Below are positions 2,492-7,933 of a stretch of 64,000 nucleotides of DNA, piece by piece. The position numbers and the translations under genes were made by a program. A model generated the notes under the pieces. That model had not been told where the DNA came from. It searched no databases and saw only the letters and a list, made by a program, of their open reading frames with translations. The DNA is from Isoetes taiwanensis. Its lineage: Eukaryota; Streptophyta; Lycopodiopsida; Isoetales; Isoetaceae. The stretch is from assembly GCA_021234155.1 (NCBI GenBank), contig JAJEKV010000400.1:172784-236783 (forward strand). The letters are read 5' to 3'. Each line of letters begins with the position of its first letter. The stretch's first letter is position 1.

Positions 2492-2593
2492 TCTCTCTCT
2501 CTCTCTCTCTCTCTCTCTCTCTCTCTCTCTCTCTCTCTCTCTCTCTCTCTCTCTCTCTCTCTCTCTCTCTCTCTCTCTCTCTCTCTCTCTCTC
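2492..2593. repeat. (TC)n microsatellite, about 51 units
   Basis: This is a pure TC tract preceded by about 90 bp of imperfect TCTC-rich sequence. It is the first of the long TC tracts that separate retroelement copies between 2.5 and 7.9 kb. Its translation (Leu-Ser repeats) is meaningless. Confidence 0.97.
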
Positions 2594-2729
2594 ATGTTAG
2601 AACCTCACTGGGATCTTGGCATCCTAGGACCTTTGGCCCCTGGTATCCTTGTAAGGGGTGGTGCTCTTGAAGAGGGGCGTCGATATCCCAAAGGGATCTT
2701 TGGCTTGTGCTTTCTGACGTAAAAATACA
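2594..2729 (+). mobile_element. SINE-like 3' fragment with (CT)n tail
   Basis: The fragment starts exactly where the previous TC tract stops and runs into the next one. Its last 40 bases contain GGATCTTTGGCTTGTGC and GACGTAAAAATACAT. These closely match the 3' end of the tRNA-derived SINE at 4115-4323 (GGATCTTTGCCTAGTGG, GACGTTAAAATAC). The stretch GCTCTTGAAGAGGGGCGTCG recurs with small changes at about 3996-4016. I therefore read it as the 3' part of a related short retroelement; no A or B box is visible in it. Confidence 0.5.
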
Positions 2730-2762
2730 TCTCTCTCTCTCTCTCTCTCTCTCTCTCTCTCT
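2730..2762. repeat. (CT)n tail of SINE-like fragment
   Basis: A tract of about 16 CT units directly follows GTAAAAATACAT and ends at GTGTGTGG, where a LINE fragment begins. It is read as the tail of the preceding fragment. Confidence 0.9.
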
Positions 2763-2763
2763 G

Positions 2764-2845
2764 TGTGTGGAAATTGAAGGCTCGGATGACCAAGCCCTAC
2801 CACCTTGTGCTATGAAACTGAGAGAGCAAAGGGTGGTATATCTAG
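2764..2845 (+). repeat. Direct duplicate of internal LINE sequence
   Basis: This about 80-bp block (from GTGTGGAAATTGAAGG to GAGAGCAAAGGGTGG) repeats the LINE coding sequence at about 3198-3273, with a few small differences. It is fused directly to reverse-transcriptase sequence starting at about 2846 (YLGLLVDQSSEME in translation). A downstream piece placed upstream in the same orientation suggests template switching during reverse transcription, or a later local duplication. Confidence 0.75.
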
Positions 2846-4488: not shown

Positions 4489-5200
4489 CATGGCATGGAA
4501 CATTAACCATTTGACCAAACAAAAAAGTTGAGACTATGTATGGATGTTCTAGCATCAATCGACATGGTATTTTCTCAGAAACTTGGGAGCATGAAGAAAG
4601 TGGTTTCTGGGAGATTCAAGGTTTTAGTGTTGTACACTCGGTATGGAACAAAAAAAGGATGGGTAGAAGAGGATACGATTGGGATTGCTTGTTACATTAA
4701 AAAAGAAATGGCACACTTGGCTAAGGTGATAAAAAAAGGGAATCTAAACAATATATTTGGGTGGAGTTGCGACGGAAACAGAAAAATCTTCTTTGGCCGG
4801 ATGCTATTTCCCACCATTAAAAAGAAGCACATACCAAAAGTACAATTTGGATACAGACGATCCGTTCCAAGAACTAGAGCGAGACAGTTTGGGCCTTATG
4901 GGTTTAGGGGATATTGTCTTAATCGGGGATTTTAATGGTAGAACGGCGGGAAGCAAGCATCAATGGTTAGTAACGCGGGGATCCCATCTAGATGGATCAA
5001 CTTCGAGGCTCATGAGCCGGAGCTTTGGGTGGAAGCGTTAGCTTCCATGGATGAAGCAAGTGGCCTACTCCTATGGGAACGCATGTCTTGAATATGTCTT
5101 TGTAGTTTGGACCCGCTTATTTATAATGGCATTAGAAGTTTCTCCGCACGCAACCGATGTACATCACGGGGAAAAAGTATTGTAGATTACTTTATTGCAT
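4489..5200 (+). pseudogene. LINE APE-type endonuclease domain, broken
   Basis: Translation in shifting frames gives MAWNINHLTKQK at the start, ASIDMVF followed by a degraded ETWEHEE-like stretch, then CYFPPLKRSTY and VLIGDFNGRTA (about 4915-4945). WN-IN, the Q/ETW box and GDFN are conserved landmarks of LINE endonucleases, which nick target DNA and create the primer for reverse transcription. Frame changes occur near 4560, 4600 and 4760, so no active enzyme can be made. The downstream part to about 5200 is poorly readable. Confidence 0.7.
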
Positions 5201-5959
5201 CGTAACGGTTTATAGAACAAAAGTTCGTGGATTTGTACATTAGGAAGCAAGAAGTGAATCGGATCATGTACCTATAATAGCACATGTGAGGATTGCGGGA
5301 TCCACGTGAGCATCGTAACAACAAAGAGAATATGGCATACATATTAACAAATGGAAGAAATTTGAGAAATATCAGGGCATCTTGTGAAGCAAAAAGTGGC
5401 AAATGCTGACTTGGCCACAAAGTGTCGGTTGGGAAAAGTGAGGTTTGACCCACCGGCATGCTGAAGCAAAGAAAGCACATGTTTTAACTCGCCAGCGCAA
5501 GAAAAAAGGATTACCTTTGCAAAGGATGGTTTGATGAGGAATGCCAACACAAAAAGAAAACAATATAAAAGTGCTCATGGTGCGGAGCGAGTACGACTAA
5601 TCAAAGAGTTTAAAACTCACCAAATGCAAAAAAGGAATTTGTACGTCACAAACAACATGAGCTAGTTGTAGATCTTACCGAGATCCGCAAAAAATTTTGG
5701 AAACGCATGAAACGAGGCAAGCAACCAAGTGAAGACTTAAAGGTGGAAGATCTCATTGCACGCGTGAAGAAGCTTTATCACGTGAATGGCATCACACAAG
5801 AACCGAATGGTATTACAACAGATTCGGTATTCACATCGAGGATGTGCGACAAGGGCTAGAAAAGCTAGCAAATGGAAAAGCGGGCGAGATACCATGGGAA
5901 TGGTGGCGAAAACGCTCAAATGGGCAGGAGAGGGGTCCAAGGAAAAATAACGAAATGTT

Positions 5960-7095
5960 TAATGTGGCAACAAGCAAGAAGGGTTCCCAAAAACATGGCG
6001 ATCAATAGGGTGGTTCCCATACATAAGTCCGGGAAGTGAAACGGAAGCAAGTAACTATCGCGATGATTATGGTGAGCAATCTCTTCGTAAAAAACTTTTG
6101 CAACCATTGTAGAGCATAAGATAAGTGTTTGGGTGAGACGATGATGTAATGCTAAAAGGCGTGTGCTTTAGGCGAAAAAAATCCACAATAGACCATTTGG
6201 TAACATTCGGGGCTATGATGGATTCGATGAAAGGAACTTCAAAAGATTATTTGCGGGCTTTGTTGACTTTACTAAAGCATTTGATCTAGTGAGTAGAGAC
6301 AAGCCGTGGGAAAGCATGGAGCCGTAATTGATGTGCCTAGTCACCTAAGGGCAGCTTGTTGAAACCTGTTATCTGAGAAGGTGTTGGTGCAGCTCTCCTT
6401 CCCATACATTGAGAGTGTGATGAGCAGTGGAGAGTAATATAGGAGTGAAGCAGGGCTGCCCCCTATCCCCTACTATGTTTGGCATTTTATTGATGACCTA
6501 GAAAGATGGATAACCACTCTTGGGGAGGTGGCACCCAAGTAGCGAGTGGTATGCTATATGTATTCCGCTATATGCCGATGACATAGTTACGCTACTTGTG
6601 AAGAGAGAGGGGATGCAAAAACATTTAGATGTTCTAGCATCTTTTTTTGCAGACAACAGGGGATGCGGGGTAAACTTGATGAAGACCAAGATTGTGCTGA
6701 TTGGGACCCAATCGGATCATAATTTTACATTCACATACAAGGGAGGCGGTCGAAAATAACACGTACATACAAATACTTGGGGCTGATTGTAGATAAACAC
6801 CGCCGGATGGAATCAAGCGAAAGGGGAACAACGGGTAAATGGGGGGCTAAAGGCTCTATATTCGCTATATGAGAAAAAGTGCTTGAAAGCAGAAATCTGG
6901 AGATTTGAATTAAAAAAGATGCTCTTTAGAACCCTTGTACAGGCTGTAGTATTATATGGATGTGAGGTATGGGGGCCAGGGCTATCTCTAGAACTATGGC
7001 AAAAAATTGAGAAGATACAAAAGAAATTTCTACGCACTGAGCTTGGAGTCAAAGTACAAACACCATATGAGATGATGTCGAGGAATGTGGCATGA
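5960..7095 (+). pseudogene. LINE reverse transcriptase domain with YADD box, broken
   Basis: Pieces of the RT palm and fingers are legible. AINRVVPIHKSGK lies near 6000, and GVKQGCPLSPTMF near 6445-6485. LYADDIVTLL follows, with the catalytic Tyr-Ala-Asp-Asp codons at 6571-6582. After it come FFADNRGCGVNLMKTK and the continuation into VQAVVLYGCEVWGPGLSL. These are the standard LINE RT motifs in the right order. Stops and frame shifts between them show that the copy is inactive. Confidence 0.75.
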
Positions 7096-7860
7096 TGCCC
7101 TTTGGAATGTGAGGCCCCGTGCGTCGATATTTGGGATATTTAAGCAAGCTTCTGAGGTCTAGAAGAAAACAGTTATCCAAGGTTAGCATTGAGGGAAACG
7201 TTCGAGAAAGGGTGGTATGCAGATGGTTTGACCTGGATGCACAAATGGGGACTTAAGATAGAAGACCTCGGTGTTAACAAAAACAGAATTTATGAATGGG
7301 TTAAGGAGACGGACGACCGCAAGGATCTGGTATAGTCCGTGAGTGAAAATGTCACACTATAGGAGAAGATGAACCGCCCTTGCAAGAAATGAGCTATCTC
7401 AATGAGAGCATCTCCATGAGCAAGAGGCACGCCAATATGTAGAATGCGGTTGAGTGCACATCACCTAGGGGGTGGAAGTAGGACGATGGTACAATATACC
7501 ACGGGAATACCGAACGTGTGGGATGTGTGGAGCAGATCGGTAGAAGATGAAGAACATGCAATCATTCATTGCCCAAAGATACCAAACTCGAGGGATGCCC
7601 CTTGGCATACACATAACAAAGATGCAACTTTTTTGATATGCCGGCTACAATAGAGGGTAGCTTCTAATCGATTTGATCTGCGATGAGAGAGGGAATTAAG
7701 GCTATAGAAATGTATTTGACAGACTTGAGGAAAGAGAGGAAAGTGATGACGATCCTCATGAGGGGTTGTCGATGATAACTAGAATCCTATATTATGTAAT
7801 TGGTCTTATAGACACGATGGTCTCAAAAGACGCAAAATAAAAACACATCACTTCTCTCTT

Positions 7861-7933
7861 CTCTCTCTCTCTCTCTCTCTCTCTCTCTCTCTCTCTCTCT
7901 CTCTCTCTCTCTCTCTCTCTCTCTCTCTCTCTC
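7861..7933. repeat. (CT)n tail of LINE copy 2
   Basis: A 73-bp pure CT tract follows the LINE 3' UTR, with a short transition (CACTTCTCTCTT) before it. It closes the chain of TC-tailed elements. Confidence 0.95.

Follow-up and report, generated by a model that had tools for sequence, protein, structure and literature searches.

Microsatellite-specific non-long-terminal-repeat (non-LTR) retrotransposons were reportedly described from animals by Kojima and Fujiwara in 2004, and the Tx1-clade element Kibi inserts at (TC)n. In the quillwort Isoetes taiwanensis, a lycophyte, we analysed a chain of long and short interspersed nuclear elements (LINEs and SINEs) that are joined to one another by (TC)n tracts and lie in a stretch of 64,000 nucleotides, hereafter the window (contig C108, 172784-236783), of an assembly searched over 1,658,258,908 bases in 1110 contigs. 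According to the portions of the published sources covered here and below, Togen families target (TG)n, and the target-specific Tx1 and R1 clades use an apurinic-type (APE-type) endonuclease (PMC4640811). The Isoetes case is like the animal elements in its microsatellite target; however, the latter are described as target-specific (PMC4640811), whereas in Isoetes only 4% of the heads of SINE1, one of the SINEs of the chain, are found at (TC)n, and several families, including SINEs and DNA transposons, are involved.

Among plants, the SaTar arrays of guayule and rice come closest in architecture, being likewise linear, non-nested series of unrelated elements joined at microsatellites, but their modules are non-autonomous Mutator-like DNA transposons (MULEs), whereas those of Isoetes are mainly one-way LINEs and SINEs, plus elements carrying DDE_Tnp_4 (PMC5907723). 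Other microsatellite-targeting plant DNA transposons are MuTAnT and miniature inverted-repeat elements of pineapple. L1-CS of Cuscuta europaea, a plant LINE lineage of which 91% is associated with CUS-TR24, also has a strong insertional preference for a repeat, but its target is a satellite monomer rather than a dinucleotide microsatellite, and no SINE partner appears in the portions covered (PMC8091179). Plant LINE/SINE pairs of the RTE clade resemble the Isoetes case in the Tn signature that SINE and LINE have in common, with thymines in a row some ten bases before the point of insertion; they show a T-run with target-site duplications, where Isoetes has (TC)n chains, and the Isoetes LINEs are not assigned to a clade (PMC13295347). 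Searches of open-licence PubMed Central papers, covering for most of them the titles and the beginnings of abstracts, brought up no plant LINE/SINE pair joined at microsatellites.

The chain begins with the end of a PIF/Harbinger-type terminal-inverted-repeat element (709-2491, - strand; one end only located), whose terminus GTATGTGGCCAAGGCA abuts a (TC)51 tract (2492-2593). Five truncated retroelements then follow in + orientation, with (TC)n at their joints: a 5'-truncated SINE2 of 136 nt (2594-2729), (TC)16 at the joint (2730-2762), the 5'-truncated LINE 1 (2763-3920), (TC)35 (3921-3990), a second, shorter SINE2 copy of 72 nt (3991-4062), (TC)26 (4063-4114), SINE1, apparently tRNA-type (4115-4322, with about 3 nt of filler at its start), its tail of (CTAT)n passing into (TC)n (4323-4385), the long, decayed LINE 2 (4386-7852) and a (TC)41 tail tract (7853-7933). 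For the first four (TC)n tracts Tandem Repeats Finder gave 100% matches and for the last one 97%; it also reported a mixed CTAT/TC tract at 4327-4385 (94%) but no further array with a TC unit elsewhere in the window. The four window tracts of (TC)15 followed by a non-T base are all on the + strand and all within the chain, and 100 shuffles of the sequence yielded none; genome-wide, this pattern occurs 3571 times (1777 + 1794), once per 464 kb. These coordinates and counts uphold the initial annotation in its description of five head-to-tail units on one strand at the ends of (TC)n tracts and in its claim that the arrangement is not random, while the PIF/Harbinger-type module extends the chain upstream of where that annotation began it. 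Chains of similar make-up were found by reading at L045, L070, L079, L082, L111 and L124.

We consider it probable that the chain reflects strand-specific target-primed reverse transcription which favours pyrimidine tracts and in which (TC)n tails and tracts are re-used as landing pads. The direct observations behind this reading are the adjacency of elements and tracts, their bias in orientation, the (TC) that flanks SINE1 on either side, a paralogous site lacking the SINE, and the recurrence at many loci. The association with (TC)n is a preference, not a strict rule, and probably reflects a preference for pyrimidine-rich strands in general. The initial annotation had proposed endonuclease cutting and priming inside (TC)n repeats; the involvement of several families in one orientation, the excess over background and the paralogous (TC)n site agree with that model, but its strict targeting does not hold, as nearly all copies of a strictly microsatellite-specific element would be at the target and we counted 40 of 1009 SINE1 heads and 7 of 12 LINE 1-family ends.

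The most extensive counts come from SINE1, recognised in the window by genomic matches and, by eye, by motifs like the A and B boxes. Neither ARAGORN (bacterial code) nor Rfam returned a match in the window. The assembly search gave 43 SINE1 matches and 264 exact cores, and the 14-base head occurs 1009 times genome-wide (492 + 517; reversed control, 9). Forty distinct heads lie at most 11 bases after (TC)5, our rule for counting SINE1 as at (TC)n and a lower bound (the window copy, at 14 bases, is excluded), compared with none after (GA)5; none lie after (AC)5 either, a weak zero considering that long (AC) tracts are a twelfth as common. Background positions after (TC)5 numbered 34 and 202 of 122860 on the two strands, so that the enrichment is about 41-fold over their mean; because this background takes in sequence flanking the window copy, any error in it would be towards overestimation. 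Among the first 30 of the 264 listed cores, three are at (TC)n (L015, L037 and the window copy, L022). Every second one of the 40 loci was fetched, and in 18 of these 20, (TC)n with n at least 7 also lies beyond the (CTAT)n tail (none in L121 and L128 within the stretch examined). The possibility that (TC)n is SINE1's own tail was rejected, since that tail is (CTAT)n across SINE1 copies; the (TC)n adjoining SINE1, which the initial annotation had included in the tail, looks like target DNA. Upstream of the tract, judged by eye, the same 20 loci have a retroelement 3' end in ten cases, a PIF-type end in four and no recognised element in five; the neighbour of the remaining one, L123, was not assignable. 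Ten of 20 is close to the 16 of 40 found at tracts at large (P = 0.58), which is expected if SINE1 takes any (TC)n.

Furthermore, the other 27 of those 30 listed SINE1 copies, which lie away from (TC)n, are preceded by 12 bases that are 69% pyrimidine (225/324), compared with 51% far upstream, and over 18 bases upstream not one of 5000 permutations gave a value as high as that observed. SINE1 thus seems to prefer a pyrimidine strand in general, with insertion at (TC)n as the extreme case. Words shared between the two sides of SINE1 loci averaged 7.1 versus 4.9 after shuffling, a small excess inflated by the two (TC) loci and by the (CTAT) tails, and we claim no target-site duplication from it.

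A candidate for the state before insertion is found at L080, where SINE1 is located inside a tract, (TC)26-SINE1-(TC)30. At the same place L102 has (TC)21TGCATA(TC)31 and no SINE, with 92% identity to L080 over 147 bases on one side and 92% over 490 bases on the other (tracts included). L075, which has TC and CTAT tracts and likewise no SINE, matches L080 over 76 bases (96%, largely tract) and over 266 bases (89%). The three loci are paralogues, not alleles.

Concerning the other SINEs, the two fragments described initially as SINE-like are present, and they are more precisely 5'-truncated copies of SINE2, apparently tRNA-type as well: the first is 92% identical to the full-length SINE2 in L082, and the second, assigned by eye, terminates in GCGTAAAAATACA as the first does. 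SINE and LINE ends have in common only a short terminal similarity of the type GACGTWAAAATA, seen by eye. A third SINE-like family, SINE3, begins directly after (TC)n in L086 and L105, the L086 copy having GACGTTAAAATC followed by (TTC)n.

The two LINEs of the chain are, as judged from their sequences, different families, with about 39% protein identity and DNA similarity in only two patches (70% and 80%); this excludes the chain being a tandem duplication of one locus, the alternative that the initial annotation had itself raised. The 3' part of LINE 1 (3480-3920) has 41 genomic matches, its own included. Thirty of these loci were fetched; 5' regions were read for 18, of which L055, L058, L060, L061, L063 and L068 were dropped (internal deletion, or LINE sequence continuing), leaving 12 with a readable, truncated 5' end. 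Seven of the 12 ends (L039, which is the window copy, L042, L045, L048, L059, L064 and L067) lie within 8 bases of (TC)8 or longer on the same strand, or six of 11 if the duplicates L059 and L064 are counted once. Most fetched copies carry (TTTC)n, (TC)n or both behind the conserved end ...ATAATCAAATT (exceptions L046, L049 and L066). The initial annotation had named a majority of other copies with 5' flanks free of (TC)n as a result that would refute it; the LINE 1 family does not give this result, since most of its readable ends abut (TC)8 or longer.

The head of LINE 1 was rightly described as rearranged: about 79 nt of it (2764-2839) copy the element's own downstream sequence at 3197-3275 (88.6% identity in an alignment of 79 bases). 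The copy is in direct, not inverted, orientation, the pattern that a template switch would give, and is fused to the C-terminal region of the reverse transcriptase. Behind it, the frame at 2871-3731 is free of stops over 286 codons and encodes a C-terminal part of the reverse transcriptase protein that is about 90% identical to the proteins of L052 and L043; it had no Pfam match. In LINE 2, by comparison, the main frame (5614-7653) has 25 internal stops in 679 codons, and this unequal decay argues for separate insertion events. LINE 2 contains reverse transcriptase sequence with YADD and a C-terminal part; Pfam searches with eight pieces of it returned only an RVT_1 fragment (6514-6759) and a stray RBR match, both below the cut-off. 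A non-LTR-type reverse transcriptase domain is clear in fetched LINE family members, with RVT_1 at 3e-26 to 8e-34 in L052, L054 and L047 and present also in L065, and L054 matches R2 (96 bits) and L1 ORF2 (66 bits) in the PDB. An endonuclease domain of the apurinic type (Exo_endo_phos, 6.4e-7) was found in L099, another LINE, which adjoins a sampled tract; Exo_endo_phos had no match in the broken window copy or in L070. All 14 LINE 3' ends examined, including those of LINE 1 (3876-3906) and LINE 2 (7801-7831), fold into two stacked stems (z about -4 in the three tested), and a MAFFT alignment of these hairpins contains one compensated pair. A conserved 3' stem-loop is also a feature of Stringent-type plant LINEs (PMC3747384), but its sequence differs from that in Isoetes, where the SINE1 and SINE2 ends have no significant fold (z -1.3 and -0.3).

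To view the association from the tracts themselves, we took 40 tracts of (TC)15 or longer by fixed steps from the first 100 of the 3571 contig-ordered tract ends. A LINE 3' end is directly upstream of 13 of them, 11 by a 3'-motif score set at the 99.9th percentile of background windows and two (L091, L107) by eye, and a SINE 3' end is directly upstream of three (L072, L080, L089). Antisense scores above the threshold in L070 and L074 were left uncounted, the hairpin being near-palindromic. Nine tracts are followed by a retroelement 5' junction (L070, L072, L079, L082, L090, L097, L098, L099, L108), with four of these heads judged by eye: L097 and L098 just reach the score as short LINE ends, the match in L072 begins 129 bases on, and the LINE in L108 comes after a second tract 18 bases on. 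Not counted were the SINE3 heads of L086 and L105 (after a further tract), the LINE ends of L075 and L102 (after (AC)), and search rows such as L074, L077, L081, L091, L096, L100, L103 and antisense L102, the flanks in the LINE library containing other repeats. All counted elements read in the TC direction, and the remaining tracts were, by reading, plain tracts, TC-rich stretches or neighbours of PIF-type elements.

These findings would fit a mechanism in which APE-type LINEs, inserting through target-primed reverse transcription, favour pyrimidine-rich strands, with long (TC)n as the hottest form of such a target, and in which SINEs probably borrow the LINE machinery. The nick would be placed in the GA strand, which could pair with a pyrimidine-rich RNA tail, namely (UUUC)n, (AUUUC)n, (UCUA)n or (UC)n, and the orientation of the insertion would thereby be fixed. 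As many LINE insertions end in (TC)-type tails, each could provide a new landing pad, and serial insertion could produce non-nested, one-way chains. Taken further, (TC)n landing pads would be self-propagating, with LINE tails generating (TC)n that recruits, strand-specifically, further LINEs of several families, two or three SINE families and PIF/Harbinger-type elements, and a large part of the long (TC)n tracts in the genome would be joints of one-way chains; we put this forward tentatively, as a possibility that we hold to be somewhat doubtful.

Several observations weigh against target-primed insertion at pyrimidine tracts as a full account. Most SINE1 heads, 969 of 1009 (96%) under the 11-base criterion, lie away from (TC)n, which is the result that the initial annotation had named as refuting it. 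Likewise, five of the 12 LINE 1-family ends are not at (TC)n (L044, L053, L056, L062, L066), and all 12 are read from the filled site. Inside a microsatellite, moreover, a target-site duplication is unreadable. The cases are not all independent, given that a stretch of 83 kb on contig C1094 accounts for five of the 40 SINE1 cases and that L126 and L127 have a common flank, and the tract sample is neither genome-wide nor fully independent, with eight of its 40 tracts on contig C100. The nanopore-based assembly could, besides, have misjoined at (TC)n. A sample of 20 tracts from the first 100 of the 307 (AC)15 tract ends (160 + 147) has, by eye, a retroelement 3' end upstream in five cases (L134, L135, L136, L145, L146) and LINE coding sequence downstream in three (L138, L145, L148). 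The rates are thus only moderately lower than at (TC)n, but these joints mostly adjoin (TC)5 or longer (four of the five upstream cases, L136 excepted, and all three downstream), as do ten of the 20 tracts overall (L134, L135, L138, L139, L142, L145-L148, L152). By score, LINE 3' motifs are upstream of 2/20 (AC) and 11/40 (TC) tracts, and downstream of 1/20 and 4/40. Considering that half of the sample is joined to (TC)n and has similar joints, we rejected (AC)n tracts as a clean control, and retroelement joints also occur outside pure (TC)n.

Elements that use no reverse transcription also abut (TC)n. The window sequence at 709-1419 is 92% identical to L129, and that at 2104-2495 is 81% identical to L131, and at both loci the PIF-type elements begin (TC)nGGCCACATGC; L130 and L132 contain DDE_Tnp_4, which we take to be a marker of PIF/Harbinger elements. 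Their left ends GGCCACATGC follow (TC)n at L129-L132, with eight exact cases of (TC)19GGCCACATG, and their right ends, which read GCATGTGGCC or nearly so, are in turn followed by (TC)n in the window, L103, L118, L124 and L128. Part of the cause may accordingly lie in the DNA, in the form of open or fragile tracts. A further locus with a PIF/Harbinger-type element is L081.

Of the alternatives, template jumping, in which the reverse transcriptase, having completed one RNA, moves on to the (UC)n tail of a second and joins the copies head to tail in a single insertion, appears unlikely as the general explanation. A retroelement 3' end is upstream of eight of the nine heads in the tract sample versus 16 of the 40 tracts (P = 0.004), so that joints between retroelements exceed what uniform targeting of tracts would yield, as template jumping would give and against our reading, and the displaced sequence at the start of LINE 1 also suggests template switching. 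Template jumping may thus add to LINE-LINE joints, but it leaves unexplained the (TC)n before non-retroelement neighbours (in the 20 SINE1 cases, five with no recognised element and four with a PIF-type end), the paralogous site L102 and the unequal decay of LINE 1 and LINE 2.

Recombination, by which duplication or unequal exchange between dispersed (TC)n joins elements inserted elsewhere, is in our view still less likely. It has its traces, which again count against our reading: L059 and L064, about 33 kb apart on contig C1056, have 1413 bases in common at 96% identity, comprising a truncated LINE and its 3' flank, and the match begins in a TC-type tract immediately ahead of the LINE, while the sequences further upstream do not match, which places a duplication breakpoint in the tract; L126 and L127 are similarly alike in the SINE and a short 3' flank and differ upstream. 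Nevertheless, recombination explains neither why the 5'-truncation points of separate copies are at the tract edge nor why solitary SINE1 copies are biased towards pyrimidines.

To the same slight degree, elements might have inserted at short pyrimidine or TC stretches and (TC)n might then have expanded on both sides, making the long tract as much a product as a target. Long (TC)n, which often borders retroelements, outnumbers long (AC)n twelvefold (3571 vs 307 tract ends), and tract expansion after insertion has been proposed for TA-targeting MULEs in maize (TAFTA; PMC5907723); against this, none of the 27 solitary SINE1 copies has (TC)5 beside its tail, by reading, in the stretch examined, and at the paralogous site L102 the tract is long even without the SINE. 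Finally, a passive hot spot, where open or break-prone microsatellite DNA takes in mobile DNA of every kind and enzymes have no preference, would suit the PIF-type ends at (TC)n and the similar joints at (AC)n tracts but is highly improbable in view of SINE1 being one-way, 40 to 0, unlike what an orientation-blind hot spot would give.

If the landing-pad system is real, plants would have their first non-LTR system that combines a microsatellite target with partner SINEs. The question of how long dinucleotide microsatellites arise would then be tied to that of how LINEs choose their targets, two topics that are usually kept separate. Should insertions use (TC)n and create it as well, retrotransposition would have left many of the long (TC)n tracts of the genome as a by-product. 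From this follows a safe-haven model, testable across the published genomes of I. taiwanensis and I. sinensis, and microsatellite markers of quillworts may sit within repeat chains.

Two minor features of the window lie outside the chain. At 48085-48118 there is a (TATC)8 tract, with no recognisable SINE1 body adjoining it by reading. On the - strand, a 159-aa open frame at 15361-15840, away from (TC)n, matches Exo_endo_phos at 1.6e-6 and is probably the endonuclease part of another LINE.

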